Below are positions 12,109 through 56,933 of a DNA stretch of 64,000 nt, piece by piece. The notes under the pieces are model-generated. The model ran no database searches and was not told the origin of the DNA. It saw only the letters and a program-made list of their open reading frames with translations. The number at the start of each line of letters is the position of its first letter. Position 1 is the stretch's first letter. The position numbers and the translations under genes are program-made. Location of the stretch: assembly GCF_003584645.1 (NCBI RefSeq), contig NZ_AP017928.1:4850833-4914832 (forward strand), given 5' to 3'. This DNA comes from Methylocaldum marinum. Its GTDB lineage: Bacteria > Pseudomonadota > Gammaproteobacteria > Methylococcales > Methylococcaceae.

Positions 12109-12269
12109 AGCCAGTTTATGCAAGTCCTGCCGGTGAAGCGTGGATACAATTCCGAGCGCTGGCCATAGACGGGAAACGATCCGGCGGCTTGACGATCCAT
12201 AGCGGAACGCCAGCTTAGGATAATGAATTCGGACCGGCGTTTTCCAGAACTTTTTCCGGGAGGATTCCC

Positions 12270-24784: not shown

Positions 24785-24870
24785 GTCGATAAAAGTCCGT
24801 AACAGGTCGAAAAGGGGGAAGCGGGTTCCCGGGCGGCTCGGCCACCCGGGAACCCGCCGCCATTCGGCGA

Positions 24871-26392: not shown

Positions 26393-26589
26393 GTTGCGTT
26401 TTCGGGTTTTGTGATTCAGAAAATCGCAAAAGCGCTCCAGCCCTTGCCGTATCGGCATTGCGACTCATTCTTCCCTCGCCGGGTCTGCATAATCGATTGT
26501 CGCCTGGCATATCGATTGCACGCCGGATGCTGTTTCAAAGTAGTGACAATTCCGAAATCCGCGGGCCGATAAAACAACTCTTGATATCC

Positions 26590-29099: not shown

Positions 29100-29635
29100 G
29101 TACGGCAGAAATTTCCAGGCCGCTGGAAAAAATCAGGATTTCGGATATCGATGATGGTTTTTTGCGGCGTGTCTTAAAACCTTATCGAAGCCACACCTGC
29201 TATTTGAAGCGGTCCAGTTTTCATCAGCAAGATAACCTCGACGTGCGAGGCCTGGTCATGAACGGCGAATTCGCGATAGCAGAATCCTGCTATATCGATG
29301 ATACCGGCCATTTCAACGCCGTTGAATACAATATCTGCTACAACCAGATTGCGTATGTTCATTTGGGCCATTGCATCGAAAACGGGTTTATTCCGGAGCT
29401 GTCGGATTACGATACCGAAGCGTTTTTCGAGAAACAGCTTTCGAATTTTCTGATCGCAAAACTGGAGTCGAGTTTCCAAACCCAACTGAATGCCAAGCAT
29501 TTTTACGGTACTTTCGGAATCAGCTCCATCAAGAAAACTTCGAGATGCACGTTCATCAAGACATATTGCCATTTTTACGATGACGGAAACGGGAGATCCA
29601 AGGGCGAAGTGACGCTCGCGGTACTGGCGCCGTAA
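29096..29635 (+). CDS. FcoT/ScoD-type hot-dog thioesterase
   Basis: A protein of 179 residues whose central block (GEFAIAESCYIDDTGHFNAVEYNICYNQIAY) is the hallmark of the Rv0098/FcoT family. The C-terminal ...GEVTLAVLAP strand also fits. In the characterised pathway this enzyme adds glycine to an enoyl-ACP and releases the (carboxymethyl)amino acid, the substrate of the ScoE oxygenase. The ATG overlaps the oxygenase stop by 4 bases, so the two are translationally coupled. Family recognition is from remembered sequence pattern, with no search made. Confidence 0.87.
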   Translation: MSTAEISRPLEKIRISDIDDGFLRRVLKPYRSHTCYLKRSSFHQQDNLDVRGLVMNGEFAIAESCYIDDTGHFNAVEYNICYNQIAYVHLGHCIENGFIPELSDYDTEAFFEKQLSNFLIAKLESSFQTQLNAKHFYGTFGISSIKKTSRCTFIKTYCHFYDDGNGRSKGEVTLAVLAP

Positions 29636-29680: not shown

Positions 29681-32600
29681 ATGTCTTCCAGCTCGATTGT
29701 TGCCACGTTGCAGCTTGCCCATCCGGCCGACAGAAAGCCGATATTGGGCGCCTATGTCAGGGAGTTATTGGCCAATTTTCTCGGAATGGATAAGCCGGAA
29801 GACATAACGCCCAATCAAAGCTTTATCGAATTGGGTACCGATTCCGTACAAGCCGTGGAATTCAAGTCCAGGCTGGAATCGAAGCTGGCGTGCTCGCTGC
29901 GTACCACTTTGCTGTTTGACCACCCCAGGCTGGATTTGCTGGTCGATTATTTGGTCGACGACATACTGCCGTTGAGTCCGCCGCCCCCCGGCAATGCGGA
30001 CGCCGGTTCATCCTCTCCCGCCGCCGTCGGTACCGATCCGTCTTCCGACGCGCGAACGCAAGCGATCGCCATCATCGGGCTGGCGGGCCTGTTTCCGGGG
30101 GCCGATAACGCGGAATCGTTATGGAACAGAGCCATGGCGGGCGAATGTCTGTGGCTGGATCCGCCCTCGTCGGCGCCGGCCTACGAATACGGCCGCATCC
30201 GGTACTGCGATCCGGCCGAGGAGAACGCAACAGCCGATTCCGGTGATCGCCAAATGCGGCTCCTGGAGCGGCTCATTCGGCAGGTGCAGGACGATTACCA
30301 CATTACCCGGAACATGCTTTCGGCGAATACGACCGGCGTTTTCATCGCTGCTCAAGCGGCGGCGGGTAGTTTCGCATGCGGCGGCCAGCCCTATACGATC
30401 CCGATCGCCAACCGGATTTCGTTTCAATGGGACCTGAAAGGCCCAAGCGAGGTCGTCAATACCTTTTGCACCAGCGTCTACGTCGCGCTGCATCGGGCGC
30501 TGCAAAGCATCCGCGCCGGCGAATGCGAGCAGGCCATCGTGGGCGCCGTCAATCTGATAGACGCCGAAGAATTCGAGAGCGCGGCATTGCACGGCCTCTA
30601 CGACCCGTTGCTCAGCCCGCGCAACCGGACCAGCAGTTTCGGCGAGGAAGCCGATGGTTTCGTCAGAAGCGAAGGCGCCGGGATTGCCGTCATCAGGCCG
30701 TTGCGGGATGCCGTGGCCGACGGCAATCGGGTGCTGGCGATCATCCGAAGCAGCGCGGTACATCACGGCGGTCGCGGTTATTCGCTGGAAGCCCCCAACG
30801 TGCAGGGGCTCAAGCAGGCGATAGCGGCCAGCATCGCGCAGGCGGGCATCAGCACGGATGCGATCGATTATGTGGAAGCCCACGGCATCGGCAACACACT
30901 GGCCGATGCCCTGGAGCTGAACGCGATCAACGATGCTTACCGGCAGTTCAGCGCGAACCCCGATAAGACCTGGTACGTCGGCAGCGTCAAGCCCAGCATC
31001 GGCCATCCCGAAGTCGCGGCCGGCATGGCCTCGCTGATCAAGGCGGTCAAGGCCCTGGAACATCGCGCGATACCGGGCATTGCCGGACTCGGCGAGATCA
31101 ATCGCGAACTGGCGAGCGATCATGCCCTGATCCTGCGGGATCGCTCCGCACCCTGGCCAAATACCGCCGGCCCGCGCCGGGTCGCGCTCAACAGCTACGC
31201 GATAGGCGGCGTCAACGCGCACATCGTGCTGGAAGAGTATTGCGGACAGGCGGCAGCCGATGGGGCCGCGGCCATCGTCCGGCCCGCGCACGCTATGTCG
31301 AGCGCCGGCACTACGATGCCGGCGGCCGGTTTGAACGGGGATCTTCGGGCGGCGCTCGCGAACCTGGTCGCCGAAGTATTCGGCATGGAACTGTCGGACA
31401 TCGATCCATCGCGCTCGCCCGTGCATTACGGTTTCGATTCGATCCAGGTGGTGCAATTCATCAAGCGGTTGAACGAACGGCTGGGTTTGAATCTCAGGGT
31501 TGCCCAGGCGATGGGCGCCAAGAACTTCGGCGAATTTTTCGACATGCTGGCCCGGCAGGCGCAGGGCAGGGACAGCGTGGCGTCCGATGCGCCGCGAACG
31601 GCGGCGAGCGTGCCGACGGCGCCGCAAGCTTTGTCGGAAATCCAGAAAGGCTTGTGGTACATCCAGGAAACTTTTCCCGAGTCCACCGGTTTCAACGTCC
31701 CGCTCATGTTCCGGCTCAGTGCCCCGGCCGACCCGGACTGCCTGCGCCAGGCGCTGCTCGCGGTACTGGAGGAGCATCCCATGCTGCGGTGCCGCTTCAA
31801 GAAGGACTTATCCGGAGAAGACATCGTTCAGACGGTTGCTGCGGCCGGCGATAGCCTTGCGATGGAGCACATGACGCTTCCCGCGGACCAGGCGATCGTA
31901 CCGTTCTTGTGGCGACTGCTGCGGCACCCGTTTGATCTGGAAACCGGTCCGGCGGTTCGGCTGTATTCCTTGGAGCGCCCCCACGAGCAAGTTCACTATG
32001 TCTTCTTCGTCGTGCACCACATCGTCATCGACGGCTTTTCGGGAATCCTGTTCGCTAACGCGTTCTGGGACCGATATCGGGTTTTGTCGGCCGGCGGCAA
32101 ACCGGCCGTTCGAGCGCCCGATACGGCCTTTTTCGACTTCCTTGCCTGGGAGCGGGCCTACCTCGACAGTGGGCGCGCCGAAGCCGATCTGGCGTGGTGG
32201 AAATCCCGTCTGGCCGGCCTGCCGGCAAGCATCGCCCTGCCATACGATACCCTGCCTCAACCGGGCTTGCCCGACCGCGGCATAGGCTGCGAATGCCTGA
32301 CGTTGAACGGCGGAGCCCTGGCCGCGCTGAAATATCTCGGTTCGTCGCTGAATCAGAACCTGTCGGCCTTGTTGCTGGGCGTATTCACGCTTCTCCTGCA
32401 TCGGCTGAGCGGGGACGAAGACATCGCGGTCACCATGCCGGTAGCCGGGAGGCCGATGCAGCGGCATGAGAACAGCATCGGCTGCTACATCAACCTGATG
32501 ATCGTCCGAACCCGCCTCGGCATGGACGACACGTTTCTGCAACTGGTAAAACGGATCGGCGCAAATCTCGCCGAAGGACTGGACCACGCCGATTACCCGT

Positions 32601-34792
32601 TTGCCAGGTTGATGCCCGAACTGGGACTGCCGCTGCTCAACCCGAATGAAGTGCCGTTTCCGGTGTCGTTCACCTACCAGAACATCTTCGACGGCCTGCC
32701 GGGAAATGCGGAACGGCCGGGTGGCGCCGAGCTGTGCTACGACGTCTATCAGGAAACGATGGACAACTACACGCTGGAAGTCTACGACTTTCGCGATAGC
32801 CTGAGCCTGCACCTCAAATACAAGCGCAATTTGTTCGAGACCGCCACGGTCCGCCGCCATCTCGGCTATCTCGAAACGCTGTTGGCGGCTATCGCGGAAG
32901 ATCCCGGCAAACGCATCGGCGACTACGACTGTTTGCCGGAGCATGAAGCGCGCCTGCTGCTGGACGGTTTCAACGCTACCGCCGCAGAGTTCCCGGGGCA
33001 GCTCTGCGTTCACGAACTGTTCGAAGCGCGCGCGGCGGAGGTTCCGGGCAACACGGCCTTGATCTTCGCCGGCCGGCCCATGTCCTACGGCGAATTGGCG
33101 GACCGCAGCCGGCGGCTGGCGCTCCATCTGCAGGCCCTGGGGATGGGACCCGATCAGCGGGTCGCGGTGTGCATGGATCGTTCGGCCGACATGATCGTCG
33201 CGGTTCTGGGCGTGCTGCGCGCCGGCGCCGCTTACCTGCCGATTGATCCGAACAACGGCGAGGATCGCATCCGCTACATGCTGAGCGACGGCGGTGTCGG
33301 CCTCATGCTGACCCAATCCCATCTGCAGCCGCGTCTGGCGGAAACGGCGTCGGCTTGCGGCTGCCGGACCCTGGCGGTGGACGATCCCGCCCGGGCCGAC
33401 GGCGGGGCCGGCGCCGAGCTGCGCCGCGAGGTCGGTCCGCAGCACACGGCTTATGTCATCTACACGTCCGGCAGTACCGGGCGGCCGAAAGGCGTGGTGA
33501 TCGCTCACCGGTCGCTGGTGAATCTTTGCCGCGCGATGACAACGACATACGGCATTACCGACGCCGATAGAATCTTGCAGTTCGCTTCGCTGAGCTTCGA
33601 CATGTCGGTGGAGGAAATCTTTCCCTATTTGGCGGCCGGTGCCGGCATCGTGATCCGCGAAGACGCCGATATCGAAGCGGAGAAGTTTTATCGGGTCGTC
33701 GTCGCCAACGGAGTCTCGATACTCAATCTCCCGCCGCAGTTCTACGGCGTGATCGAAGCGCTGGAACCGGAGCAGCAACAGCGGATTTTCGGTCAGCTGC
33801 GGCTGATCGCATTCGGCGGCGAAGCCTTGCCGGATACGACGCTGCGCGCCGTGCAGGAACGCGGTGTCAGAATATTCAACGCGTACGGTCCGACCGAATA
33901 CACCGTCAATGCCGCCATTGCCGAACTCGGGGCCGGCCGCCGTCCGAGCATCGGCAAGCCGATCGCCAACACCCGCCTGTACGTGCTGGGCAAACACCTC
34001 GAGCTGCTGCCGGTCGGTGTGGCCGGCGAACTTCATATCGCCGGCGAGGGGCTGGCGCTGGGCTATCTCAACAACCCGGCCTTGACCGCGGAAAAGTTCA
34101 TCGACAATCCGTACGCCCCCGGAAAGCTGTACAAGACCGGCGATATCGCGCGCTGGCTGGATGACGGCACGATCCAATACCTCGGGAGAAGCGACGATCA
34201 GCTCAAGATCCGCGGGTTCCGGGTCGAGCCCGGCGAAATCGAACGGGTGCTGGCGGAACAGCCCGGGATCCGGAACGCGGCGGTCGTCGCGCACCGGCAG
34301 CAGTTGGTGGCCTACTACGTCGCCGAGGAACCAGTCGAGCCGGCGGTCCTGGCCGCGGCACTGCGCAAGCGATTGCCGGATTACATGATGCCGTCGGCCT
34401 TCACGCGCATCGACGACATTCCGGTGACCGCGAACGGGAAAATCGACCGGAAAAGCCTGCAGGCGCAAGCCCTCGCCGTCACCGGCCAGGCGGTCTATAC
34501 CGAGCCCCGGAACGAGCTGGAGAGCCGCCTGGCGTCGATCTGGCAGGAGGTGCTGGGCGTCGACCGGATCGGCATAGACGACAACTTCTTCGCACTGGGC
34601 GGCCATTCGTTGCTGGCCGTGCAGATCATTCTGAGAGCGAATAAACAACTAGGCGTCAGCCTGAGCCTGCGCGCCTTGTTCGACGCCGCCGACATCAGGC
34701 ATCTGGCGGAAGCCGTGTCCGGCTCCGCGGAGGCCTCCGCCGAGGACACCCTGGCCGATTTTCAGGAAGACCGGGATCAGTTGATCCTCTGA
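29681..34792 (+). CDS. hybrid PKS-NRPS: ACP-KS-ACP-C-A-PCP
   Basis: A protein of 1703 residues. ACP1 is at about 20-95 (carrier serine S55 in LGTDSVQ). The ketosynthase is at 127-520, with active-site C263 in NTFCTSVYVALH and histidines H401 (VEAHGIGN) and H442 (KPSIGHPEVAAG). ACP2 is at 555-625 (S587 in YGFDSIQ). The condensation domain is at 648-1090 (HHIVIDG at 779-785), adenylation at 1110-1600 (YTSGSTGRPKG, NAYGPTE, KTGD, NGKIDRKSL), and PCP at 1605-1680 (S1643 in LGGHSLL). No AT, KR or DH domain is present. ACP1 replaces the free ScoB/InlB carrier. By-eye alignment to GrsA gives the A-domain positions as D-M-E-Q-I-F-A-V-N-K, and no substrate is claimed. An acidic tail probably docks to the next protein. 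Confidence 0.92.
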   Translation: MSSSSIVATLQLAHPADRKPILGAYVRELLANFLGMDKPEDITPNQSFIELGTDSVQAVEFKSRLESKLACSLRTTLLFDHPRLDLLVDYLVDDILPLSPPPPGNADAGSSSPAAVGTDPSSDARTQAIAIIGLAGLFPGADNAESLWNRAMAGECLWLDPPSSAPAYEYGRIRYCDPAEENATADSGDRQMRLLERLIRQVQDDYHITRNMLSANTTGVFIAAQAAAGSFACGGQPYTIPIANRISFQWDLKGPSEVVNTFCTSVYVALHRALQSIRAGECEQAIVGAVNLIDAEEFESAALHGLYDPLLSPRNRTSSFGEEADGFVRSEGAGIAVIRPLRDAVADGNRVLAIIRSSAVHHGGRGYSLEAPNVQGLKQAIAASIAQAGISTDAIDYVEAHGIGNTLADALELNAINDAYRQFSANPDKTWYVGSVKPSIGHPEVAAGMASLIKAVKALEHRAIPGIAGLGEINRELASDHALILRDRSAPWPNTAGPRRVALNSYAIGGVNAHIVLEEYCGQAAADGAAAIVRPAHAMSSAGTTMPAAGLNGDLRAALANLVAEVFGMELSDIDPSRSPVHYGFDSIQVVQFIKRLNERLGLNLRVAQAMGAKNFGEFFDMLARQAQGRDSVASDAPRTAASVPTAPQALSEIQKGLWYIQETFPESTGFNVPLMFRLSAPADPDCLRQALLAVLEEHPMLRCRFKKDLSGEDIVQTVAAAGDSLAMEHMTLPADQAIVPFLWRLLRHPFDLETGPAVRLYSLERPHEQVHYVFFVVHHIVIDGFSGILFANAFWDRYRVLSAGGKPAVRAPDTAFFDFLAWERAYLDSGRAEADLAWWKSRLAGLPASIALPYDTLPQPGLPDRGIGCECLTLNGGALAALKYLGSSLNQNLSALLLGVFTLLLHRLSGDEDIAVTMPVAGRPMQRHENSIGCYINLMIVRTRLGMDDTFLQLVKRIGANLAEGLDHADYPFARLMPELGLPLLNPNEVPFPVSFTYQNIFDGLPGNAERPGGAELCYDVYQETMDNYTLEVYDFRDSLSLHLKYKRNLFETATVRRHLGYLETLLAAIAEDPGKRIGDYDCLPEHEARLLLDGFNATAAEFPGQLCVHELFEARAAEVPGNTALIFAGRPMSYGELADRSRRLALHLQALGMGPDQRVAVCMDRSADMIVAVLGVLRAGAAYLPIDPNNGEDRIRYMLSDGGVGLMLTQSHLQPRLAETASACGCRTLAVDDPARADGGAGAELRREVGPQHTAYVIYTSGSTGRPKGVVIAHRSLVNLCRAMTTTYGITDADRILQFASLSFDMSVEEIFPYLAAGAGIVIREDADIEAEKFYRVVVANGVSILNLPPQFYGVIEALEPEQQQRIFGQLRLIAFGGEALPDTTLRAVQERGVRIFNAYGPTEYTVNAAIAELGAGRRPSIGKPIANTRLYVLGKHLELLPVGVAGELHIAGEGLALGYLNNPALTAEKFIDNPYAPGKLYKTGDIARWLDDGTIQYLGRSDDQLKIRGFRVEPGEIERVLAEQPGIRNAAVVAHRQQLVAYYVAEEPVEPAVLAAALRKRLPDYMMPSAFTRIDDIPVTANGKIDRKSLQAQALAVTGQAVYTEPRNELESRLASIWQEVLGVDRIGIDDNFFALGGHSLLAVQIILRANKQLGVSLSLRALFDAADIRHLAEAVSGSAEASAEDTLADFQEDRDQLIL

Positions 34793-34822: not shown

Positions 34823-37800
34823 ATGAAGAACCTGCTCGCTCGATTGATCAAACAGGGCACTCGCCTGAGCGCCACCGCGGACGGCGATTTGAAAATCCAG
34901 ACCGGCAACCGCGCGCTGTCGGACCAGGATAAAGAGGCGCTGAAAGAGCACAAAGCCGCGATCGTGGCGTTTCTGGACGGCGGCAAACTCGCGTGCCTGT
35001 CCTATCCCCAGGAACGCTTATGGTTCCTGGAACAGATGGGCTACGGATTTCAGTACAACCTGCCGGGCATCGGCCATATCGACGGCGCCCTGGACGTTCC
35101 GGCCCTGCAGCGCGCCATCGAGTTCGTCGTGGCCCGCCACGAAAGCCTACGGACGCTGTTCGTCACGCTGGAGGGCATCGCCGCCCAGCATATCCTTCCC
35201 CGCATGGCCATGCCGTTCGAGCAGCTGGACTTGAGCCGGCTGGACGACCGTGAGCGAGGCGAAGCCCGGAGGCGGCATGTCCAGGCGTTCATCGAGCAGC
35301 CGTTCGACCTGGAACGAGGCCCGCTGATCAGGGCGCTTCTGATCGGACTGTCCGACAGCCGCCATGTCCTGGCTTTCTGTATGCACCACATCATTTCCGA
35401 CGGCTGGTCGATGCGGGTGCTGCTGCGCGATCTCTCGGCCGCCTACGACGCCTACCGGCTCGGACGGAAGCCGGACATGCCGCCGCTGAAGCTGCAATAT
35501 TCGGGCTACGCGCTATGGCAGCGGGAAACCCTGACCGACGCCAAGCTCGCCGGGGAACTTGAATACTGGAAAGCCCGGTTGACCGGATACAGCAATCTGG
35601 ACATGCCCCTGGACTACACTCGTCCGGCGCGTCTGAGCGGTGCCGGCGCCATCACCGACTTCGTCGTGAGCCAGGATCTGGCGCAGCGCATCAAGCAAAT
35701 CTGTCGAGCCCGGAATACCACGCCGTTTACCTTGTTTATGGCGGCGGTGTATGTCCTGCTCAGAAAATACAGCGGGCAGACCGACATCTGCATGGGCATG
35801 CCGGTCGCCAACCGCAATCACCCCGACCTGGAGAACATCGTCGGCTTTTTCGTCAATACCCTGGTGATGCGGTTGAATCCGGCGGACGGACCGGACCCGA
35901 GCCTGGACGCATTGCTGGAGAGCGTCCACCGAACGATCGTCGACGGGCAGGACCATCAAAATCTGCCGATCGAGAAAGTCCTGGAGTTTTTGCAGCCGGA
36001 GCGGGACCTGGGGCGGAGTCCGATCTTCCAGGTGCTCATCAATTACACGCCGCTGGGGGCCGGCAAATTCGAGTTCGGCAATTGCACGATCGAGCCCGCC
36101 TTCGAGTTCGAGAGCCGCAGCGCCAAATTCGAGCTGACTTTCACCTACAACGAATTCGAAGACGGCCGTGCCGGCGTTGCCGTCGAATATGCATCGGATT
36201 TGTTTCATTCCGGCACGATCGCCGCGATGTGCGCGAGGCTGGAACGCATCATCGACGCTTTCGCGGCCAGCCCCGAAGCGCCGCTGTCCGCCCTCGAACT
36301 GGTCACCGCCGACGAACGCCGGCAAGTCCTCGAGACCTGGAACCGTACCGAAGCCGCCTACCCGGACGATGCCTGCCTGCACGAGCTGTTCGGAAGACGG
36401 GCGCGGGCAACCGGCAAGCACATCGCCGTCGCGTACGGCGACGAGCGGCTCAGTTACGCCGAACTGGACCGGAAAAGCGATCGGCTCGCCGCATACCTGC
36501 AGAAGCGCGGGGTAACCGCCGACAGTCCGGTCGGCCTGTGCGTGCCCCGTTCCCCGGAACTGATCGTGGCGATCCTCGGAATACTGAAAGCCGGCGGCGC
36601 CTATCTGCCGCTGGATCCGGAGTACCCGGCGCAGCGTCTCGAAGCCATGTTGGCGGATAGCAGCGTACCGCTGGTGCTGACCATGGGGGAGGCGGCTCGG
36701 TCATTGACCCGGCTTGCCCGCCCCGGCGGCTGCGAACTGCTCGAGCTCGATACCCTGGCAGCCGAACTCGCCGCCATCCGCGAACAGCCGCGACCCGTGG
36801 CCGACCCGCAGCGGCTGGCCTATATGATTTATACCTCCGGTTCCACCGGGCAACCCAAGGGCGTGATGGTCGAGCACCGCAGCGTGGTCAATCACAACCG
36901 GGCGGTGATGGCGGCCTATCACCTGGTTGCCGGCGACAAGGTGCTGCAATTTTCGAGCGTTTCTTTCGACATCTTCGTCGAGGAAGTCTTTCCGACTTTG
37001 CTGGTCGGGGCGACGCTGGTGATGATGGACGGCCGGAAATTCACCGATCCCGACTATCTGTGCGAAATCTTGCGCCGGCACGAGGTCACCGTGATCAACC
37101 TGCCGACCGCCTACTGGCAAACGCTGGCGGAGCGGCGCCTGTCCGGTAGCGGTCTGAGGCTGGCCGTGGTCGGCGGCGAAAAGCTGGACAGCGGCGCAGT
37201 CCGAAAATGGCGCCAGGCCAACCCGGCCGTCCGCTTGATCAATACGTACGGTCCGACCGAAACCACCGTCATCTCCACCCTGTTCGAAATCGGCGATGCG
37301 ACCGATTTGAGCCGGCCCATCCCGATCGGTGCGCCGATCGCCAACACCCGCGTCTATATTCTCGACCGCGATCTCAAGCCGGTGCCGGTCGGCATGCCGG
37401 GAGAACTGTATATCGCCGGCACCGGCCTGGCGCGCGGCTACTGGGGCAACCCCGATCTGACTCGGGAAAGATTCCTGGAGAACCCGTTCGAACCGGGCCG
37501 GCGCATGTACCGAACCGGCGATCTGGCGCGCTGGCTGCCGGACGGCACCATCGCCTATCTGGGCAGAGTCGATCATCAGGTCAAAATCCGCGGATTCCGG
37601 GTCGAACTGGGCGAGATCGAGAGTGCGCTGAGCGCGCTGCCGGAAGTGACGAGCGCGGCGGCGGTCGTGGTGACGCCCCGCTCCGGCGGCAGCCGGCTGG
37701 TGGCCTATTACACGAGCGAGGAGACCGCCGTCGACGGTGAGCTCCTGCGCGAGCAACTGCGCAAGCGCCTGCCCGATTACATGCTGCCGGCCGGGATCTT

Positions 37801-39838
37801 CCGCCTGGAGGCCATGCCGCTGACGCCCGGCGGCAAGATCGACCGCAAGCGGCTGGAGCAAAAACCGGTGGAACTCGATGCCGGCAATCACTATGCCGCA
37901 CCGCAAACCCCGGTCGAACAGCAGCTGGCCCGCATCTGGGAGGAGGTGCTCGGCCGCGAGCGCGTCGGCCTCAACGACAATTTTTTCGAAATCGGCGGCC
38001 ATTCGCTGCTGTCGGTGCAGTTGGCGAACAAAGTCAATCAGCTCCTGCCGTCCGCGTCGATCAGCGTGGTGGATATCATCCGGTATCCGACCGTGCGGGA
38101 ACTCGCCGGACGCATCGACAGCGGCGGCGGCAAGCCGGCCGGATCGCCCTATGTCGCCGGCCTGCGCGACAGCGTGCCCGCTTTCATCATTCCGGGCATG
38201 CCGGGATTGGCCGACGGCTACCACCAGTTGGCGACCGTCATCGGCGAGTGCGGTCCGGTGTACGGCCTGCAGATGAAAGGCTACGGCGGCAGCGAACCGG
38301 CCCGGTCGGTGGAGGACATGGCGGCTCACAATATCGCGCTGATTCGAGACATCAAGCCGGGCGGGTCGATCAGGCTCTACGCCCACAGCTACGGCGGAAC
38401 CGTGGTCTACGAAATGCTCAGGCAACTGCGGGATACCGAGATCCGGGTCGACGACGTGGTGCTGATAGACTGCGGCATCATCCGCCGCCTGGGGCAAATC
38501 GACGTTCCTTCGGTCACCGTCTTTTGCAAGGCGATCTTCGAGAATGCGGGCATCGATCCCGCCGCCCACGAGAAGTCCATCGTAGCCATCTTGGCGAACA
38601 CGCCGTATCCGGCCTGGAAGACCCAACTGGCGGAACTGCTGCACAAGGTCATGGGGATCGCGCCGGACTATTTTCTGGATTTATGGAACGTGGTCGAGAC
38701 CTCCCTGTCGGTCGATTACCGCTATCCGCACGGCAGGCTGCCGTACCGGCCGACGCTGGTCATCGCCGAGGAGAGCCAAAGCTGGCTCAAGCCGAACTGC
38801 TGGGACGATTACTACGACAGCGTACGGGTCGTCCACGCCCGCGGCGCGCACATGTCGGTCATCACCGAACCCTATTGCTCGGAGTGGGTGAATCGGCTGA
38901 GGTCAGGGCCGGGCGGCGAGGGCGCCGCAACGCGGCAATCCGGTGTCTCTCCGGGGCAGACTTTGTTCAGTATCCGGGATCTGGAAAAGAAGTACCGAAA
39001 AGTCACCGCGGTCGACGGCATCAGCTTCGATATCAGGGCGGGGGCGTGTTTCGGCCTGCTGGGACCGAACGGGGCCGGCAAAACCACGACCGTGGAAATG
39101 CTGGAAGGCATCATTCGGCCGACTTCGGGCAGCATCCATTTTTGCGGCCGACCGCTGGATGCCGAATATCGGAAACGCATCGGCATTCAGTTCCAGCAGA
39201 CCGCTTTGCAGAACCACCTGACCGTCCGGGAAACCCTGCAATTGTTCCGCAGCCTGTATCGGACCGGCCCGGCACCGGATGCGCTGATTGCCGCCTGCTC
39301 GCTGCAAGAATTCGCGGACCGGGACAGCGGAAAGCTTTCCGGGGGCCAGCGGCAGCGATTGCTGCTGGCCATCGCCCTGGTCAACGATCCCGACGTCGTG
39401 TTCCTGGACGAGCCGACCACCGGCCTGGACCCCCAGGCTCGCCGCCATTTCTGGGAATTGATCGGCGAAATCAAGAAACGTGGCAAGACCATCGTGCTGA
39501 CCACCCACTACATGGAAGAGGCTGAACAGCTCTGCGACGAAATCGCGATCATGGATCATGGCCGCATCCTGGTGCAGGACGCGCCGGCGGCCTTGATGCG
39601 CCGGCATTTCGACGGCATCGCGATCCGTCTGCCGGCGGGCAGCGGCCTGGCCGAAAGGAGCGAATTTCCTTACCCGGTCACTAAGGTCGGCGACACGCTG
39701 GAGTTCGTTACGCCGGACGTCGAACAAGCGATCGGGCATCTGCTGCAGCACCAGGTGCCGTTCGAAGGACTGCAGGTCGCCGCTCCCAACCTCGAAGACC
39801 TATACCTGAAACTCACCGGCCATTCGCTGCGAGCCTAA
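34823..39838 (+). CDS. NRPS (docking-C-A-PCP-TE) fused to an ABC transporter ATPase
   Basis: A protein of 1671 residues in one uninterrupted frame. It has a TubC-like docking domain (1-55), a condensation domain (56-480, HHIISDG at 188-194), an adenylation domain (505-1010, YTSGSTGQPKG) and a PCP (S1061 in IGGHSLL). The thioesterase spans ~1117-1360, with a likely triad S1189 in AHSYGG, D1216 and H1343. A full ABC ATPase follows at ~1380-1671: Walker A GPNGAGKTT (1414-1422), Q-loop FQQT (Q1459), LSGGQ (1505-1509), Walker B VVFLDE (1525-1530) and H-loop H1562. The ATPase resembles DrrA/ABC-2 NBDs, and its permease begins two bases after the stop codon. By-eye A-domain positions are D-I-E-A-A-V-T-V-I-K. 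I know of no described NRPS ending in an exporter ATPase. Confidence 0.92.
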   Translation: MKNLLARLIKQGTRLSATADGDLKIQTGNRALSDQDKEALKEHKAAIVAFLDGGKLACLSYPQERLWFLEQMGYGFQYNLPGIGHIDGALDVPALQRAIEFVVARHESLRTLFVTLEGIAAQHILPRMAMPFEQLDLSRLDDRERGEARRRHVQAFIEQPFDLERGPLIRALLIGLSDSRHVLAFCMHHIISDGWSMRVLLRDLSAAYDAYRLGRKPDMPPLKLQYSGYALWQRETLTDAKLAGELEYWKARLTGYSNLDMPLDYTRPARLSGAGAITDFVVSQDLAQRIKQICRARNTTPFTLFMAAVYVLLRKYSGQTDICMGMPVANRNHPDLENIVGFFVNTLVMRLNPADGPDPSLDALLESVHRTIVDGQDHQNLPIEKVLEFLQPERDLGRSPIFQVLINYTPLGAGKFEFGNCTIEPAFEFESRSAKFELTFTYNEFEDGRAGVAVEYASDLFHSGTIAAMCARLERIIDAFAASPEAPLSALELVTADERRQVLETWNRTEAAYPDDACLHELFGRRARATGKHIAVAYGDERLSYAELDRKSDRLAAYLQKRGVTADSPVGLCVPRSPELIVAILGILKAGGAYLPLDPEYPAQRLEAMLADSSVPLVLTMGEAARSLTRLARPGGCELLELDTLAAELAAIREQPRPVADPQRLAYMIYTSGSTGQPKGVMVEHRSVVNHNRAVMAAYHLVAGDKVLQFSSVSFDIFVEEVFPTLLVGATLVMMDGRKFTDPDYLCEILRRHEVTVINLPTAYWQTLAERRLSGSGLRLAVVGGEKLDSGAVRKWRQANPAVRLINTYGPTETTVISTLFEIGDATDLSRPIPIGAPIANTRVYILDRDLKPVPVGMPGELYIAGTGLARGYWGNPDLTRERFLENPFEPGRRMYRTGDLARWLPDGTIAYLGRVDHQVKIRGFRVELGEIESALSALPEVTSAAAVVVTPRSGGSRLVAYYTSEETAVDGELLREQLRKRLPDYMLPAGIFRLEAMPLTPGGKIDRKRLEQKPVELDAGNHYAAPQTPVEQQLARIWEEVLGRERVGLNDNFFEIGGHSLLSVQLANKVNQLLPSASISVVDIIRYPTVRELAGRIDSGGGKPAGSPYVAGLRDSVPAFIIPGMPGLADGYHQLATVIGECGPVYGLQMKGYGGSEPARSVEDMAAHNIALIRDIKPGGSIRLYAHSYGGTVVYEMLRQLRDTEIRVDDVVLIDCGIIRRLGQIDVPSVTVFCKAIFENAGIDPAAHEKSIVAILANTPYPAWKTQLAELLHKVMGIAPDYFLDLWNVVETSLSVDYRYPHGRLPYRPTLVIAEESQSWLKPNCWDDYYDSVRVVHARGAHMSVITEPYCSEWVNRLRSGPGGEGAATRQSGVSPGQTLFSIRDLEKKYRKVTAVDGISFDIRAGACFGLLGPNGAGKTTTVEMLEGIIRPTSGSIHFCGRPLDAEYRKRIGIQFQQTALQNHLTVRETLQLFRSLYRTGPAPDALIAACSLQEFADRDSGKLSGGQRQRLLLAIALVNDPDVVFLDEPTTGLDPQARRHFWELIGEIKKRGKTIVLTTHYMEEAEQLCDEIAIMDHGRILVQDAPAALMRRHFDGIAIRLPAGSGLAERSEFPYPVTKVGDTLEFVTPDVEQAIGHLLQHQVPFEGLQVAAPNLEDLYLKLTGHSLRA

Positions 39839-39840: not shown

Positions 39841-40851
39841 ATGCGTCACTTCTTCGCGATACTGAGAGCGCGCAATCTCGAACTGATCCGCGACCATGCC
39901 ACCTGGATCTGGAACATCGTATTTCCGATGTTGCTGGTGCTGGCCATCGCAACCCTGTTCAACGACGAGGACAGCGCCATTTTCCAGGTCGGGGTGGTCG
40001 ACGACAGCCCCGGGCAACTGGCGGACCTCAAGCAGATCGAGCATATCCAGTTCGTCGAATACAGGGATCTGGACATCGCGCTGCAGAAGCTTCGTCACCA
40101 TCAGCTGGATATGGTTCTGCAAGGCGGCACCGCGCCGGGCTACTGGCTGAACGACACCTCGCCCAAAGGCTACCTGCTCGAAAAGGTCGTGGCGGGCGTC
40201 CGGCAGGGCGCGAATGCGCTGACCCGGAATGCCGTCAGCGGCCGGGAGATCCGCTACCTGGACTGGGTGCTTCCCGGCGTCATCGGCATCAACCTCATGC
40301 ACAGCGGCTTGTTCGGAGTCGGCTACGTCATCGTCCGCTACCGCAAGAACGGCGTGCTCAAGCGTTTGCAAGCCACGCCGCTCGGCGCTTTCGAATTCCT
40401 GAGCGCCCAGGTGGTCTCGCGTCTCGGCATGCTGCTGATCGTGACGGTCGCGCAATTCGCCGCGATGAACCTGATTTTCGATTTTTTCACGGAGGGCTCT
40501 TGCTGGCTTCTGCTGTTGATCGCAGCCCTGGGGGCCATGGCGATGATCAGCCTGGGCCTGTTGATGGCGAGTCGTACCAGCAGCGAAGAATTGGCCGGCG
40601 GACTGCTGAACCTCTTGACCTGGCCCATGGTATTCCTGTCCGGCGTCTGGTTTTCCCTGGAAGGCGCGCCGGCAGTGGTGCAGAAACTGGCCCTGATCTT
40701 TCCGCTGACCCACACCATAACCGCGGCCCGCAACGTCATGCTGGACGGCGCCGGTCTCGCTCAGATCGCGCCGGAAATCGCGGCCTTGTGCACGATGACG
40801 CTGGCGTTTTTGCTGATCGCCTCGTTCCGCTTCAAATGGGGAGAAGACTGA
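39841..40851 (+). CDS. ABC-2 type transporter permease
   Basis: A protein of 336 residues. One N-terminal transmembrane helix (about 24-44), a soluble periplasmic loop (VGVVDDSPGQLADL...), then five helices ending near LLIASFRF give the standard ABC-2 permease layout. It starts 2 bases after the NRPS-ABC stop, so it almost certainly pairs with the fused ATPase domain, as a homodimer or pseudo-homodimer. The likely cargo is the lipopeptide released by the adjacent thioesterase. Confidence 0.9.
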   Translation: MRHFFAILRARNLELIRDHATWIWNIVFPMLLVLAIATLFNDEDSAIFQVGVVDDSPGQLADLKQIEHIQFVEYRDLDIALQKLRHHQLDMVLQGGTAPGYWLNDTSPKGYLLEKVVAGVRQGANALTRNAVSGREIRYLDWVLPGVIGINLMHSGLFGVGYVIVRYRKNGVLKRLQATPLGAFEFLSAQVVSRLGMLLIVTVAQFAAMNLIFDFFTEGSCWLLLLIAALGAMAMISLGLLMASRTSSEELAGGLLNLLTWPMVFLSGVWFSLEGAPAVVQKLALIFPLTHTITAARNVMLDGAGLAQIAPEIAALCTMTLAFLLIASFRFKWGED

Positions 40852-40897: not shown

Positions 40898-41734
40898 ATG
40901 GATCGACGAAGTTTCACCAAGCTGGCGTGCCTGGGCGGCTGCCTGGCGTCGTTCAAGGCCGTCGCCGAGTCGCCGGCCCTCCGGGAGGCCCGAAGAAAGC
41001 AAAGCCTGGAAGTGTCGCGCAAGGCGCACGAAGCCATCATGTCCTCGGAAGGCCTGAAGATGACCGGCAGCGAACGGATCGCGATGCTGATGTATCCGGG
41101 GTTTACCGCGCTGGATCTGGTCGGGCCGCAGTACATGCTGGCATCGATGATGGGCGCCGGGATTTACCTGATTTCTTCGACCAACGACCTCAACCCCGTA
41201 AAGAGCGATACCGGTCTCGCCGTCGTGCCGACCCACACCTGGGACGACTGCCCGGAGTCCCTGGACATGCTGTTCGTGCCGGGCAGCGCGCTTGGCGTGC
41301 TGGAAGCGATGCGGGATGCCAAATTCATCGGATTCATCAAGGCCAAGGCCGCCGTTTCGAAGTACGTGACCAGCGTCTGCACCGGCAGCCTGCTGCTCGG
41401 CAAGGCCGGGCTGCTGAAAGGCAAGAAGGCCACCTCGCACTGGGTCACCCTGGACTTGCTGCCGAAATTCGGCGCGACGCCGGTCAAGGAGCGGGTGGTC
41501 TGGGACGGTAATGTGATTACCGGCGGCGGCGTCACCGCCGGCATCGATTTCGGCCTGCAGATCATCGCCGCGCTGCGGGGCAGGGTCTACGCCGAAACCA
41601 TCCAGCTTCAGGCGGAATACGATCCCCATCCGCCGTATGACTCGGGTTCGCCCGAAAAGGCCGACGTTCTGGTCAGAGACAGTCTCAGAGGCATGTTCGA
41701 ACCCCTGCACGTCGATCTCGAACTGGAAATCTAA
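40898..41734 (+). CDS. Tat-signal DJ-1/PfpI protein, isonitrile hydratase (InhA)-like
   Basis: A protein of 278 residues with a twin-arginine signal (RRSFTKLACLGGCLASF at the N-terminus) and a DJ-1/PfpI domain from about 58. The Pseudomonas isonitrile hydratase InhA uses an Asp and a nucleophilic Cys-Thr. Here the equivalents are D73 (MYPGFTALDLVGP) and C161-T162 (VTSVCTGSLLLGKAGLLKGKKATSHW). InhA itself is cytoplasmic, so a Tat-exported version is unusual. Inside an isonitrile-forming operon it could protect the periplasm or hydrate the isocyano group for uptake or turnover. Other DJ-1 activities cannot be excluded. Confidence 0.8.
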   Translation: MDRRSFTKLACLGGCLASFKAVAESPALREARRKQSLEVSRKAHEAIMSSEGLKMTGSERIAMLMYPGFTALDLVGPQYMLASMMGAGIYLISSTNDLNPVKSDTGLAVVPTHTWDDCPESLDMLFVPGSALGVLEAMRDAKFIGFIKAKAAVSKYVTSVCTGSLLLGKAGLLKGKKATSHWVTLDLLPKFGATPVKERVVWDGNVITGGGVTAGIDFGLQIIAALRGRVYAETIQLQAEYDPHPPYDSGSPEKADVLVRDSLRGMFEPLHVDLELEI

Positions 41735-41784: not shown

Positions 41785-44511
41785 ATGGAAAACTTCTTGT
41801 TGAAAGTGGGCCGGTTCTTTTTCGACCTGCCCGACCGTATTCTCCGCTTCAAATGGCCGATCCTGATCGCGCTGATCGGCGCGTCGGCGGTGATGGTGCT
41901 GGGCGCGCTCACCCGCCTGCACGTCAATACCTCGGCGAACAGCTTTCTCGCACCCGATGATCCGGCCATGGTGGCCTTGGACAACTTCCGGGCCCAGTTC
42001 GGCGGCGACGATACCGTGGTTCTGGTCTACCGGGCCAGGAACGGCGACGTGTTCTCCGGGGAGGCGTTAACGGCGGTCCAGGCGCTGACCGAAGATTTGC
42101 TGAACTGGCAGGATCTCGAACCGGGCGGCTACACCGATGCCAACGGGCGCCCCGTCGACCTAACGGAGCTGAAGCACATTCGAGATGTCCGTTCGCTGAG
42201 CAACATCCGCGTTCAATCCGCGCAAGGCGATACCCTGCGTTCGGAGCGGCTGCTGCCCAGGCACATACCCGAGACGCCGGCCGCTCTGTCCGAAATCAAG
42301 GCCAAGGCCATGGCCAAGGACTACTATCGCCTGGCCTATTTTTCCAACGATGGCCAGTATGGCGCCGTCGTGATCAAGACCGATTTCGGCGTCATTCCGG
42401 AAGACGGCTATGTTCCTGCAGTCGACGGCTCGGAGGTGTCGCTGGATGACAGCCTGGCCTTGCCGGGCGCGGCGGACCCGGGCTATGACGCCGATGCGGA
42501 CTTGGGCAAGGTGGTCTACAAGAAAACCACCAACGGCGAATATGCCCGTTTCGTGAAAAGCCTGAAAAGTGTCTACGCCAAGTATGACGGCACTTTGGAC
42601 TTCTACCCCGTCGGCTATCCGCCGCTGATGGAATTCGTCCAGAAAGTGCTGAATCAGGCCGTCGGATTGAATATCGGCATGGTGTTGATCAACGTCGTGC
42701 TGTTGTGGTTGCTGTTCCGCTCCTTCAGCGCCGTGCTCTGGCCGATGGTGACCATTATCCTCAGCATCGTCTGGGTGTGCGGCGCCGCCGCCTGGTCGGG
42801 AACCCAGGTCTCGACCATGATCACCTTGGCCCTGATGCTGGTGTTCGTGTGCGGAATCGCCGATTGCGTGCACGTGATGAACGCCTACCTGCTGCATCGC
42901 CGCGCCGGCCTCGCTCACCGGTCCGCGCTGTCCACGGCTTACGGCGAAACCGGGCTGCCGATGTTCGTCACCAGCGTGACCAATATGGTCGGCACCTGCG
43001 CGCTGGTGCTTTCGGATCTATTGCCGATCCGGGTATTCGCGGTCTTGTCGACCCTGGGCGTGGGCATGGCCTATCTGTTCACGCTGGTCCTGCTGCCCAT
43101 CCTGCTGGACATCTGGCATCCCGTCAAAGCCCATGCGCCAACCCGTAGCGGCCGGCTGGACCGGCTGGCCGCCGGCTGGCGCGGCCTGTCCGTCGCCGTC
43201 AAACTGCCCCTGGCCATCGGCTATTGCGGATTGCTGATCGTTCTGGGCGGACCTGAGCTGGGCGGCTTCATCGCGACGATTTCGCTGATGACCTATTTCA
43301 CGGTGGCCGCCCAGACCCGGCTGTTCGAAGGGCTTCCCGGCCTGGCCGCCCGCCATTCGTTCAAGATTCTCGTGATTTTCGCCGTGGTGTTCGCCGCCTG
43401 CCTGTACGGCAAGAGCCAGGTGCGGGTCGATTCCAGCCTGGTCGAACTGACCCGCGAGGGAAGCGACATCCGGGTCGCTTACGAAACCGCCGACCGGCAC
43501 ATGGCCGGTACCCAGACCATGGAGATCATGATCGATACCGGTGCCAGCGAGGGCATTCTGAATCCGGCCCTGCTGGCCCGAATGGATACCTTGCAGCGCA
43601 GGGTTCTGGCCCGGTATCCGGAGGAAATCAGCCGGACCTTCTCGCTGGCCGACATCGTCAAGGAGACTAACCAGCTAATGCACGGCGACGATCCGGCCTA
43701 TTTCAGCATTCCGGACTCGCAAATACTGATTTCGCAGCTGCTGTATCTCTACAACAGCGCGAATCCCAGCGATCGGCGCAGCCTGGTATCCGACGATTAC
43801 AGCCAATCGCACATCGCGCTCAATGTCTACAGTGCCGGCTCCTACCAATACAAGCGGTTTTTCGCCGAACTGGGCGCTGAAATCGACCGGACCTTCGCCG
43901 ACCTGAAAGCGGAACTTCCGGATCTGAAAGTGACCCTGACCGGCTCGGTGCCGTTGATGATGCGTACCCAGGACATCATCGCCACCTCGCAGTACGGCAG
44001 TTTCATGCTGGCCCTGGCGGTGATCAGCGCGATCATGGTGCTGACCCTGGGGTCGTTACAGGCGGGGCTGCTGGCGATCATCCCGAATCTGATCCCGTCG
44101 CTGTTCACCTACGGTCTGCTGGGCCTCCTGGGCATACCGCTCGACACCGACACCTTGCTGCTGGCGCCGGTGATCATCGGGCTTTCGGTGGACGACACGA
44201 CGCATTTCATCACTCATTACCGCATGGCACTGGTCAAGACCCGCGATATGACCGAAGCCCTGAGAGGCACCATCGTCGAAGTCGGGCCGGCGGTGGTGTC
44301 CACCGGGATGGTGTTGGGTCTCGGGTTCGGCATTCTGAGTTTTTCCGACTACCTGGGCACGGCGAAAATGGGCTTTTTCGGCGCCCTGTCGATATTCGTC
44401 GGCGTGTTGTGCGAACTCTTCCTGCTGCCCGCCTTGTTGCTGATTTTCAAGCCTAAATTCGGCTTGAAGGACCTTGCCGCCACTTTCGACTTGCAGAGGC
44501 AATCCGTATGA
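41785..44511 (+). CDS. RND superfamily exporter (MMPL-type)
   Basis: A protein of 908 residues with one N-terminal transmembrane helix, a large periplasmic domain (NTSANSFLAPDDPAM...FGGDDTVVLVY), five further helices around 290-430, a second periplasmic domain and a second set of helices near the C-terminus. It is of the HpnN/MMPL group of lipid and hydrophobic-compound exporters. The SVDDTTHFITHYR segment corresponds to the proton-relay region. The following two genes overlap by 4 bases each, and the three form a recognised exporter trio. Confidence 0.9.
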   Translation: MENFLLKVGRFFFDLPDRILRFKWPILIALIGASAVMVLGALTRLHVNTSANSFLAPDDPAMVALDNFRAQFGGDDTVVLVYRARNGDVFSGEALTAVQALTEDLLNWQDLEPGGYTDANGRPVDLTELKHIRDVRSLSNIRVQSAQGDTLRSERLLPRHIPETPAALSEIKAKAMAKDYYRLAYFSNDGQYGAVVIKTDFGVIPEDGYVPAVDGSEVSLDDSLALPGAADPGYDADADLGKVVYKKTTNGEYARFVKSLKSVYAKYDGTLDFYPVGYPPLMEFVQKVLNQAVGLNIGMVLINVVLLWLLFRSFSAVLWPMVTIILSIVWVCGAAAWSGTQVSTMITLALMLVFVCGIADCVHVMNAYLLHRRAGLAHRSALSTAYGETGLPMFVTSVTNMVGTCALVLSDLLPIRVFAVLSTLGVGMAYLFTLVLLPILLDIWHPVKAHAPTRSGRLDRLAAGWRGLSVAVKLPLAIGYCGLLIVLGGPELGGFIATISLMTYFTVAAQTRLFEGLPGLAARHSFKILVIFAVVFAACLYGKSQVRVDSSLVELTREGSDIRVAYETADRHMAGTQTMEIMIDTGASEGILNPALLARMDTLQRRVLARYPEEISRTFSLADIVKETNQLMHGDDPAYFSIPDSQILISQLLYLYNSANPSDRRSLVSDDYSQSHIALNVYSAGSYQYKRFFAELGAEIDRTFADLKAELPDLKVTLTGSVPLMMRTQDIIATSQYGSFMLALAVISAIMVLTLGSLQAGLLAIIPNLIPSLFTYGLLGLLGIPLDTDTLLLAPVIIGLSVDDTTHFITHYRMALVKTRDMTEALRGTIVEVGPAVVSTGMVLGLGFGILSFSDYLGTAKMGFFGALSIFVGVLCELFLLPALLLIFKPKFGLKDLAATFDLQRQSV

Positions 44512-45404
44512 CAGACAAGACCTGCCGTTTCCTTCTGAAAACCTTCTTATCGCTTGCATTGCTGACCGCCGCTTCCTCGGGCGAAGCCGCGACCGGCCGC
44601 GAAATACTGGAGAAGATGGAGGAATACCAACGCAGCATCACCGATTCGGCCTTCGTGAAATCCCGATTGTCGAGCTGTAAGTACGGCCTCAAGGACAAGA
44701 AGATCACCTGCGCGGAAAGCCCGCGGGTGAAGATCCTGGAAGCGGTCGGCATCAACGACGGCGCGGAACGCAAGGACACCAAGTCGGTTACGCTGGTGCT
44801 GGCACCGCCGGCCGAAAAGGGCATAGGCATGCTCAATTTCACCTACGACGAGGCCGGCCGGGACAACGAAACCTGGCTGTATCTATCGGCCCTGGGGGCG
44901 GTCAAGCGGATTGCCAACGGCAACCCGGACGAAGACTCCGAATCGGCCTCGATCTTCGGCTCGGAGTTCACGGTCGAGGACCTGGATACCGGCAAGCTGG
45001 ACGAATATGAGATCAATATCCTGGAGGAAACCACCGAGGGCGGACGCGAGGTCTGGAAGATCGAGACCGTTCCCAACCCCGACAGGGCGAAGAAAACCCG
45101 GTACGGGCGCCGGGTCCTGTACGTGGACAAGGAACGTTACGTGCCGCTGCGGGTGGAGCTGTACGACAAGCAGGGCAAGGAAATCAAACGCCTGCTTTCC
45201 TCGAATATCGAGCAGATAAACGATGTCTGGATCGCCAAGTCGCAAACCATGATGAATCTGGTCGACGACCGGCTGTCCAACCTCGCCAGATTGAAAATCA
45301 ACATCGGCGTGTCCATCCCGGACGGATTTCTGAGCCAGCGCACGCTGACCGATGCCGCCTTCCGAGAGGCCAAACTGGGAGTCCTCCGAACCCAAGTCGA
45401 ATGA
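44508..45404 (+). CDS. LolA-like outer-membrane lipoprotein-sorting family protein
   Basis: A protein of 298 residues with a signal peptide (LLKTFLSLALLTAASSGEAA) and the single-domain LolA-like fold. It has TGREILEKMEEYQRSITDSA at the start, DNETWLYLSALGAVKRI in the middle and YVDKERYVPLRVELYDKQGKEIK late. Proteins of this group sit between RND exporters and DUF1302 proteins and are thought to carry hydrophobic cargo across the periplasm. Its ATG overlaps the exporter's stop. Confidence 0.85.
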   Translation: MTDKTCRFLLKTFLSLALLTAASSGEAATGREILEKMEEYQRSITDSAFVKSRLSSCKYGLKDKKITCAESPRVKILEAVGINDGAERKDTKSVTLVLAPPAEKGIGMLNFTYDEAGRDNETWLYLSALGAVKRIANGNPDEDSESASIFGSEFTVEDLDTGKLDEYEINILEETTEGGREVWKIETVPNPDRAKKTRYGRRVLYVDKERYVPLRVELYDKQGKEIKRLLSSNIEQINDVWIAKSQTMMNLVDDRLSNLARLKINIGVSIPDGFLSQRTLTDAAFREAKLGVLRTQVE

Positions 45405-46882
45405 CCCGGAGCCGGAAGAATCGCGGCAGCCTCGCGGTCGGCCTTGGCATCCTGCTTGCCGCAATGTCGAATACATCGCGCGTTTTTTCGACGGAGACCG
45501 ATGACGAATTTACCATTGAGCTTCCCATGGACGACCCGCAATCCGCCGGAGCGGAGGATGGCGGCGGTATCGACGAGGTGCAATTGCCCGGCTCATTCGC
45601 CGCCGAATCGGCCCGCGGCCTGTTTCGCGATTTCACTTTCAAGCTGAGCCATCAGTTTTATGCCCAGGTCAATCCGCATACGGTCTTTCCGAACAACGCC
45701 CAGCCGGTCAGAAAGCCGGAAGACATCGAGAACAACCGGTTCAGCTTGCTGATCCGGTATCAAAATCCGTTCGCGCGGGGCTGGGTCATCCAGGGCAACG
45801 CCCAGGCCAAAGCCTATTTGCCCGGCGATTACGAACACGGCACTCGCAACAAGACCCTGCACATGGAATACCGGCTCGGCGATACCGAGTACCGGATCAA
45901 CGAATTGTTCGTTCAGAGAAGTTTCGCCAGCCACAGTTTCAAGCTGGGCCGGCAGACCGTCGTTTGGGGCGAAACGCTGGGCAACTCGGTCCTGGACATC
46001 ATCAATACCAGCGACTTCCGCGATTCGAGCATCATCGAGATCGAAGACGCCCGGCTCAACCAGTGGATGCTGTCCTGGGACTACTATTGGAACGACAAGC
46101 GGTTGTCGACGTTCTTCAATTTTTATCCGGAATTCAATCCGCCGGCTCGGCGAGGCAGCCCCTTCCATGTGCCGGGGACTCCTGCGCTGCCCGATCCGGA
46201 GCGCGATGAGCCCTTGTTCGAAGTCGGCAGCCAGTTGCAATGGACCGTGGAAGGAAGCGATTTCGCGCTGATGGCCGCCTATTTGTACGAAAACCAGTTG
46301 CGCTACGAGTTATCGCGGACATCGCCGGGGAAGATCCTGGCCAAGAAAAACGATTATTGGCTGCTGGGGGCGAGCGCCAACCGCGCCTTCGGCAGGCTGA
46401 TGCTGAGACTGGATCTGGCCTACAGCCACGGCGTGCTGGCCGATACCCTTTTGGCCCCGCAAGCGCCGTTCTTCGTGTCTCTGCCTTCCAGCTTGCCTAA
46501 GAATCAGCTGGGCACTTCGTTCGGATTCGAATATGCGATCGATAACGATCAGCGCATCAGCGTTTCCATCCTGGCCCGATATTTCCTGAACAAGCAGAGC
46601 GGGCTGTCTCCCGGCGAGAGACTCGCAACCGACGACATTTTCGGCACCTGGCTGATCCGCTACAGCTACAGTTTAATGAACGGGGACCTCCTGCTTTGGT
46701 CCACGATGAACGGAACGCTGAACGGCGATCGGGCACTGATCAGCGGCGCCGCCACTTATACGCTCGACGATCACTGGTCGGTGATGGCGCAAGCCATTGG
46801 GACCTGGTCGTCCCCGAGCAGCGCCACCGCCTTATTGGACAGGGACATACGCCTGGGGTTTAACGTCAGCTACTCGTTCTGA
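45401..46882 (+). CDS. DUF1302-like outer-membrane beta-barrel
   Basis: A protein of 493 residues with a signal sequence (LAVGLGILLAAMSNTSRVFS) and alternating amphipathic strands ending in VSYSF, a typical barrel C-terminus. The segment FKLGRQTVVWGETLGNSVLDIINTSDFRD, then a PEFNPPARRGSPFHVPG region, fits DUF1302. It overlaps the LolA-like gene by 4 bases. It probably completes the RND export route to the cell surface and ends the operon, since the next gene is on the other strand. Confidence 0.85.
   Translation: MTRSRKNRGSLAVGLGILLAAMSNTSRVFSTETDDEFTIELPMDDPQSAGAEDGGGIDEVQLPGSFAAESARGLFRDFTFKLSHQFYAQVNPHTVFPNNAQPVRKPEDIENNRFSLLIRYQNPFARGWVIQGNAQAKAYLPGDYEHGTRNKTLHMEYRLGDTEYRINELFVQRSFASHSFKLGRQTVVWGETLGNSVLDIINTSDFRDSSIIEIEDARLNQWMLSWDYYWNDKRLSTFFNFYPEFNPPARRGSPFHVPGTPALPDPERDEPLFEVGSQLQWTVEGSDFALMAAYLYENQLRYELSRTSPGKILAKKNDYWLLGASANRAFGRLMLRLDLAYSHGVLADTLLAPQAPFFVSLPSSLPKNQLGTSFGFEYAIDNDQRISVSILARYFLNKQSGLSPGERLATDDIFGTWLIRYSYSLMNGDLLLWSTMNGTLNGDRALISGAATYTLDDHWSVMAQAIGTWSSPSSATALLDRDIRLGFNVSYSF

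Positions 46883-55731: not shown

Positions 55732-56933
<1,202 letters not shown>

Follow-up and report, generated by a model that had tools for sequence, protein, structure and literature searches.

To our knowledge, how nonribosomal products pass from their synthetase to an exporter is mostly unknown. For ribosomal peptides, peptidase-containing ABC transporters (PCATs) combine the last processing enzyme and the exporter in one chain. Contact between a nonribosomal synthetase and its transporter is described for cereulide, where the ABC ATPase CesC binds condensation domains of the NRPS, anchors the synthetase to the membrane, and is indispensable for production (PMC7527721). These data suggest that membrane attachment of a synthetase can be provided by its transporter.

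In the window, as we call the whole stretch of 64,000 nucleotides analyzed here, one gene encodes an NRPS whose terminal thioesterase (TE) continues in frame into the ATPase of an ABC transporter. While all of its domains are known, the TE-ABC domain order and its conservation appear to be undescribed. The first-pass annotation of this DNA knew of no NRPS-TE-ABC fusion, and among the papers listed in our searches of the open-access literature, judged by titles and abstract openings, none names one either. Such a covalent fusion lets the question of synthetase-to-exporter passage be tested with one gene, and the surrounding cluster hints that methane oxidizers may secrete a metal-binding product.

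A thioesterase and an ABC ATPase in one reading frame

The gene is a single open frame of 1671 residues whose only stop is terminal, with the Pfam domain order TubC_N-C-A-T-TE-ABC (Table 1). Its TubC_N domain presumably docks onto the KS-NRPS encoded upstream. The TE is an alpha/beta hydrolase that follows the last carrier domain, as in type I NRPS thioesterases, and has its Ser-Asp-His triad in the motifs AHSYGG (S1189), LIDCG (D1216), and GAHMSV (H1343). In the ATPase, ABC_tran is found at residues 1398-1533 (107.5 bits, cut-off 25), with Walker A as GPNGAGKTT at 1414-1422, the Q-loop as FQQT from 1457, the signature as LSGGQ at 1505-1509, Walker B as VVFLDEP at 1525-1531, and the H-loop as TTHYM at 1560-1564. 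Translation, Pfam, and motif positions thereby bear out the in-frame fusion, the motifs, and the coordinates of the first-pass annotation, and the permease gene indeed begins two bases past the stop (which ends at 39838, with the permease starting at 39841). That annotation also held that the fusion "physically ties product release to export": the covalent tie is there in the sequence, while its functional side is something we only infer.

An AlphaFold model of the TE-ABC part (29-row alignment; mean pLDDT 84.1) predicts two folded domains and a disordered linker at residues 1361-1373 (pLDDT <50), with an uncertain placement of TE versus ABC (pTM 0.54) that counts against the explanation preferred below. 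The alignment was made without L041, a free-standing ATPase of Thiocapsa roseopersicina (10031-10903) with a stop in the matched frame that its near twin L040 does not have. A structure search with the ATPase part alone (model residues 274-567) returned 4yer as best match (Z 32.3, rmsd 2.0, 269 aligned residues), adding the ABC fold to the five motifs that characterize an ABC transporter ATPase. The best-scoring ABC models were drrA (231.8 of 312.45 bits) and nodI (NF010060; 227 of 521), neither of which reached its curated cut-off. An ABC-2 permease partner beside the ATPase, as in DrrAB and NodIJ, is present, and the permease lies within 2 bases of the fusion gene in all six fused loci, with a one-base overlap in a locus of a Methylococcaceae MAG (L034).

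Table 1. Features of the fusion gene and its cluster in the window.
Feature	Coordinates	Strand	Evidence
Acyl-CoA/ACP ligase, ScoC/FadD10-like by position, first gene of run	26458..28164	+	PF00501
ScoE-like Fe(II)/alpha-ketoglutarate oxygenase	28197..29099	+	NF049937 266.7 bits, cut-off 400; PDB ScoE 6dch 4.9e-63
ScoD/FcoT-like enzyme	29096..29635	+	PF10862; NF049938 132 bits, cut-off 250
ACP-KS-ACP-C-A-T protein upstream of fusion (KS-NRPS)	29681..34792	+	Pfam; three carrier sites, KS C/H/H motifs
NRPS-TE-ABC ATPase fusion, 1671 aa	34823..39838	+	Open frame, Pfam domains, TE-ABC join in 6 genomes
TubC_N docking domain, residues 2-51	34826..34975	+	PF18563, 26.2 bits, cut-off 26
Condensation domain, residues 58-502	34994..36328	+	PF00668; HHIISDG at residue 188
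Adenylation domain	36395..37837	+	PF00501 AMP-binding 525-874, PF13193 AMP-binding_C 931-1005
Carrier (T) domain, residues 1033-1098	37919..38116	+	PF00550 PP-binding; GGHSLL at 1058
Thioesterase domain	38135..38890	+	PF00975 at 1121-1217, 43.1 bits, cut-off 26.4; S1189/D1216/H1343
Linker, ~23 residues	38891..38959	+	Poorly conserved, predicted disordered
Complete ABC ATPase domain, DrrA/NodI-like	38960..39835	+	PF00005 ABC_tran, motifs, ABC fold
ABC-2 permease	39841..40851	+	PF12698 and PF01061 above cut-off
DJ-1/PfpI protein like isonitrile hydratase InhA	40898..41734	+	3non InhA 4.7e-53; 3ewn better, 4.3e-69
MMPL/HAE3 RND transporter	41785..44511	+	PF03176; 2A067 198 bits, under its cut-off
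LolA-like outer-membrane lipoprotein-sorting protein	44508..45404	+	PF17131
DUF1302 protein	45401..46882	+	PF06980 42.7 bits, cut-off 23.2

Occurrence and history of the fusion

A search of 311 Methylococcales genomes with TE-ABC (E <= 1e-62, 4 candidates scored per genome) gave 14 genomes that matched the window's TE. Six of these matched over TE and ATPase joined in frame (G000, G165, G166, G167, G223, and G259); in the other eight, the match was confined to the TE (G058, G080-G084, G092, and G189). The first-pass annotation had reckoned with a frame error at the junction or with homologues that consistently keep two genes. Neither is what we found, since TE and ATPase are joined in the same frame in each of the six genomes with a match over both, and we thus rejected an assembly or sequencing error at this position. 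Nor is the fusion confined to the window genome, as it is also present, without having been remarked upon, in Methylomonas koyamae SM2, in other Methylococcales, and on a Tsukamurella plasmid. In four of the six genomes, the whole C-A-T-TE-ABC stretch is encoded without interruption in a frame of about 1670-1695 codons; the fusion of G259 is cut by a contig end, and in the draft genome G223 apparent frameshifts disrupt the NRPS ahead of the TE. Scanning contigs with TE-ABC yielded two loci that matched almost the whole query, L034 and L035 (M. koyamae SM2), which are apparently contigs of G259 and G166, respectively, and four loci (L036-L039) that matched over the TE only. In G164, ScoE and ScoD genes are present and a contig end falls inside the KS-NRPS.

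All six fused proteins align across the junction without a stop and keep the TE triad, with linkers that are 9-19% identical to the window's in the five others. Among three Methylomonas genomes, dN/dS was 0.16-0.20 for the TE, 0.06-0.12 for the ABC domain, and 0.28-0.62 for the linker, which is short and offers few sites. Within this one genus, these ratios show purifying selection on both the TE and ABC domains.

In the eight TE-only clusters, the TE sits immediately after the final carrier domain of the KS-NRPS, i.e., of a different NRPS from the one that carries the fusion. Neither the second NRPS nor a related ATPase or permease is found in the fetched stretches of these clusters, which extend past the TE by ~0.5 kb in G092 and by 3 to 11 kb in the others. 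With eight of 14 related clusters lacking it there, the ATPase is therefore not needed in the pathway as such, which counts against the explanation preferred below. In the one TE-only Methylobacter cluster that we checked for this (L039), a gene for an outer-membrane efflux protein (10785-12254) comes right after the TE and possibly provides an alternative export route.

In a tree of 74 ATPases (six fused and 68 of 77 from other loci, with >240 aligned residues; all trees were midpoint-rooted for drawing only), the fused ATPases form one clade with support 98/90 that adjoins free-standing ATPase/permease pairs of Thiocapsa, Aeromonas, Shewanella, and Ferrimonas. This topology makes a single fusion event in Methylococcales the simplest history. 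The window's TE and KS-NRPS are closer to those of the TE-only clusters (64-75% and 63-74% identical, respectively), whereas its second NRPS, its ATPase, and its permease either cluster with or most resemble their counterparts from the fused clusters. Most simply, a fused ancestor would have given rise to a Methylobacter-type lineage that lost the ATPase and permease along with the second module. Alternatively, recombination may have occurred at two points.

Among 72,556 plasmid records, 1081 matched the window query, and one matched at least 80% of it in one place. This record, a Tsukamurella tyrosinosolvens plasmid, encodes an NRPS (WP_074850851.1) with three C, three A, and three T domains followed by TE and ABC_tran, and a permease gene overlaps the end of its gene. 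Its TE and ATPase are each only about a third identical to those of the window, which is why we take it as an independent case that probably arose by a separate fusion. With the Tsukamurella TE-ABC as query, six plasmid records contained no less than 80% of it at a single place, namely its own record and five from Streptomyces. On the latter, an ATP-binding cassette gene is annotated as a feature separate from an adenylation or NRPS gene, with 34 bases between the TE and ATPase genes in the one record examined (L145). The second TE-ABC fusion in Tsukamurella supports the explanation that we prefer, whereas its Streptomyces relatives, which work, if at all, as separate genes, speak against it.

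Of 396 genomes in the phylum of G1055, to which an actinobacterial locus had led, a single one (G1105, actinobacterial) gave a match to the Tsukamurella TE-ABC at E <= 1e-95; there, TE and ATPase are parted by a single in-frame stop, and the ATPase itself contains a frame shift. When 398 genomes of the window's phylum were sampled, 63 gave hits to a TE-ABC profile at E <= 1e-70, but the TE was covered only by the window's own match, with the other 62 beginning at profile position 253 or later (in the ATPase part); three candidates were scored per genome in this survey, so weak fusions could be missed.

Cluster neighbors and the candidate product

The fusion gene is part of a gene run (26458-46882) with gaps of at most 50 bases and three 4-base overlaps. 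No AT, KR, or other PKS domains appear in the Pfam result for the KS-NRPS. The DJ-1 protein, whose better match 3ewn is an uncharacterized structure, has a twin-arginine-like N-terminus by eye (MDRRSFTK) and perhaps works in the periplasm on the product after its export. The downstream DJ-1, RND, LolA-like, and DUF1302 genes, considered as a candidate general export route, are not a fixed part of fused clusters: in the fetched stretches of the five other fused loci, a relative of the RND transporter was found in one (G223) and relatives of the remaining three in none (E <= 1e-15).

At 22317-25707, the reverse strand encodes a pair of related secreted proteins whose tails are VPLPA/PEP-CTERM-like, with a score above the cut-off in one and below it in the other; this pair and a BNR-repeat protein upstream of the cluster have relatives beside the fused Methylomonas clusters. 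About 8 kb upstream of the cluster lies a TonB-dependent receptor gene (16049-18247, reverse strand) that is closest to heme-receptor models yet under their cut-offs, and an IS110-type transposase gene is found downstream (55923-56933). Elsewhere in the genome, a much larger NRPS locus (G000:C1:1208778-1255644) has open frames of 5610, 5180, and 3487 codons.

The ScoE-like and ScoD-like proteins remain under the cut-offs of their equivalog models (266.7 of 400 and 132 of 250 bits), and the FcoT domain is present. Used as a query against 369 genomes of the class, the ScoD-like protein matched the window's own genome only. Four Methylomonas clusters (L130, L132, L133, and L161) have two ScoE-like genes in tandem. 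The methanotroph ScoE-like enzymes keep the HxD...H and arginine ligands of Fe and alpha-ketoglutarate in 18 of 18 aligned rows, which include close strains and duplicated genes. As counted by eye on this alignment, the residue matching ScoE R195 is Q in all 18 rows and the one matching Y97 is F in all 17 readable rows, and these two residues mark the methanotroph enzymes as a subclass. In ScoE itself, product formation was lost with R195Q and reduced with Y97F (PMC7949033). With Q in the place where ScoE needs R195, the product is uncertain; judging by these substitutions, it would be isonitrile-like at best and possibly made from a different substrate.

A literature search on isonitriles in methanotrophs brought up no paper on this cluster. 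Methane oxidizers depend on copper for their particulate methane monooxygenase. Two AMO/pmoA matches in the window genome indicate that the organism is probably a methanotroph. Mycobacterial diisonitrile lipopeptides are chalkophores (PMC9600254), and a copper role of the product of this cluster is a guess.

Explanations for the fusion and comparison with described systems

The observed fusion, its conservation, its intact motifs, and the adjoining permease suggest that making and pumping out the product are physically linked. We consider it rather probable that the fusion is functional and that it tethers the terminal module of an isonitrile-lipopeptide-like assembly line to its own ABC-2 exporter, with release at the pump. 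Further points in favor are the monophyly of the fused ATPases, the purifying selection on TE and ABC domains in Methylomonas, the two predicted folded domains joined by a disordered linker, the lack of an internal start common to all six, and the cereulide precedent. Past its releasing TE, the protein would carry the ATPase half of this exporter, with the separate permease translated beside it. On a permease dimer, the ATPase domains of two fusion proteins would come together, so that each pump would hold two synthetase chains at the inner membrane, each TE sitting ~23 flexible residues from the pump motor. The product freed by the TE would then appear at the pump and be exported, and the cytoplasm would be spared a reactive, metal-binding compound. 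Membrane localization, substrate identity, hand-off by the TE, and the coupling of release to export are what we infer here; the fused ATPase could also serve an unrelated substrate, and since CesC did not bind a TE, such a hand-off is without direct precedent. More tentatively still, the protein might be viewed as a nonribosomal processing-exporter that arose at least twice (in Methylococcales and Tsukamurella), in which the TE releases a lipopeptide to the pump on the same chain as one membrane-bound machine, and which may secrete an isonitrile-type copper-binding compound.

Alternatively, a stop between neighboring co-translated genes may have been lost neutrally, which would fix their stoichiometry or do nothing at all, without channeling. 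This seems unlikely to us but carries some weight, because the linker is short and poorly conserved and because actinobacterial TE and ATPase genes lie so close together (34 bases in L145, a single stop in G1105) that one small change suffices. However, the join has been kept in three genus groups (g33, g37, and g42) beside the window's own while the TE diverged to 47-53% and the ATPase to 63-65% identity, and not one of the 14 clusters was seen to be split back into adjacent genes. We see less reason to expect a membrane tether as in cereulide, with the ATPase docking and organizing the synthetase at the membrane and product transport being secondary. Loss of the CesC/CesD transporter abolishes cereulide synthesis, but CesC bound C domains and not the TE (PMC7527721). 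A complete permease gene moreover adjoins the fusion in all six fused loci, as expected of a working pump, though this reading does overlap with that of a functional fusion.

It appears very improbable that proteolysis or internal initiation frees the ABC domain to form an ordinary ATPase/permease pair in cells. The predicted disorder of the linker would make it cleavable, and an in-frame TTG (38963) lies close to the beginning of the ABC domain in the window. Yet in-frame starts near the junction occur at no position shared by the six fused genomes, and none in the linker is common to them all, which argues against a conserved internal start; an internal start for a free ATPase is thus not favored. 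That the fusion is an assembly or sequencing artefact is scarcely conceivable: the draft relative G223 does show apparent frameshifts in its cluster, but the junction frame is the same in six assemblies, and that of the window is a single contig of 6.09 Mb.

Compared with described systems, the locus resembles the DrrAB and NodIJ exporters in pairing an ATPase with an ABC-2 permease and differs from them in that an NRPS carries the ATPase as its C-terminal domain, with scores under the curated cut-offs. With the isonitrile lipopeptide clusters of Streptomyces coeruleorubidus (ScoA-E) and mycobacteria (Rv0096-Rv0101) it shares a close run of ligase, ScoE-like, ScoD/FcoT-like, and NRPS genes; unlike in these clusters, its carrier domains are in the KS-NRPS, a TE followed by an ABC ATPase serves for release, and the oxygenase has F at Y97 and Q at R195 of ScoE. 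PCATs combine a peptidase with a complete transporter for ribosomal products, whereas the product here is nonribosomal, the permease is a separate gene, and Pfam finds no peptidase or transmembrane domains in the fusion chain. Cereulide CesAB and CesCD are alike in that an ABC ATPase is encoded with the NRPS and physically bound to it, with the transporter needed for synthesis; NRPS and ATPase are separate polypeptides there, with contact via condensation domains and not the TE (PMC7527721). The Tsukamurella NRPS differs in having three modules, in being actinobacterial, and in having no Sco-type neighbors in the annotated stretch, but like the protein described here it ends in TE-ABC and is followed by a permease gene, which overlaps in Tsukamurella.
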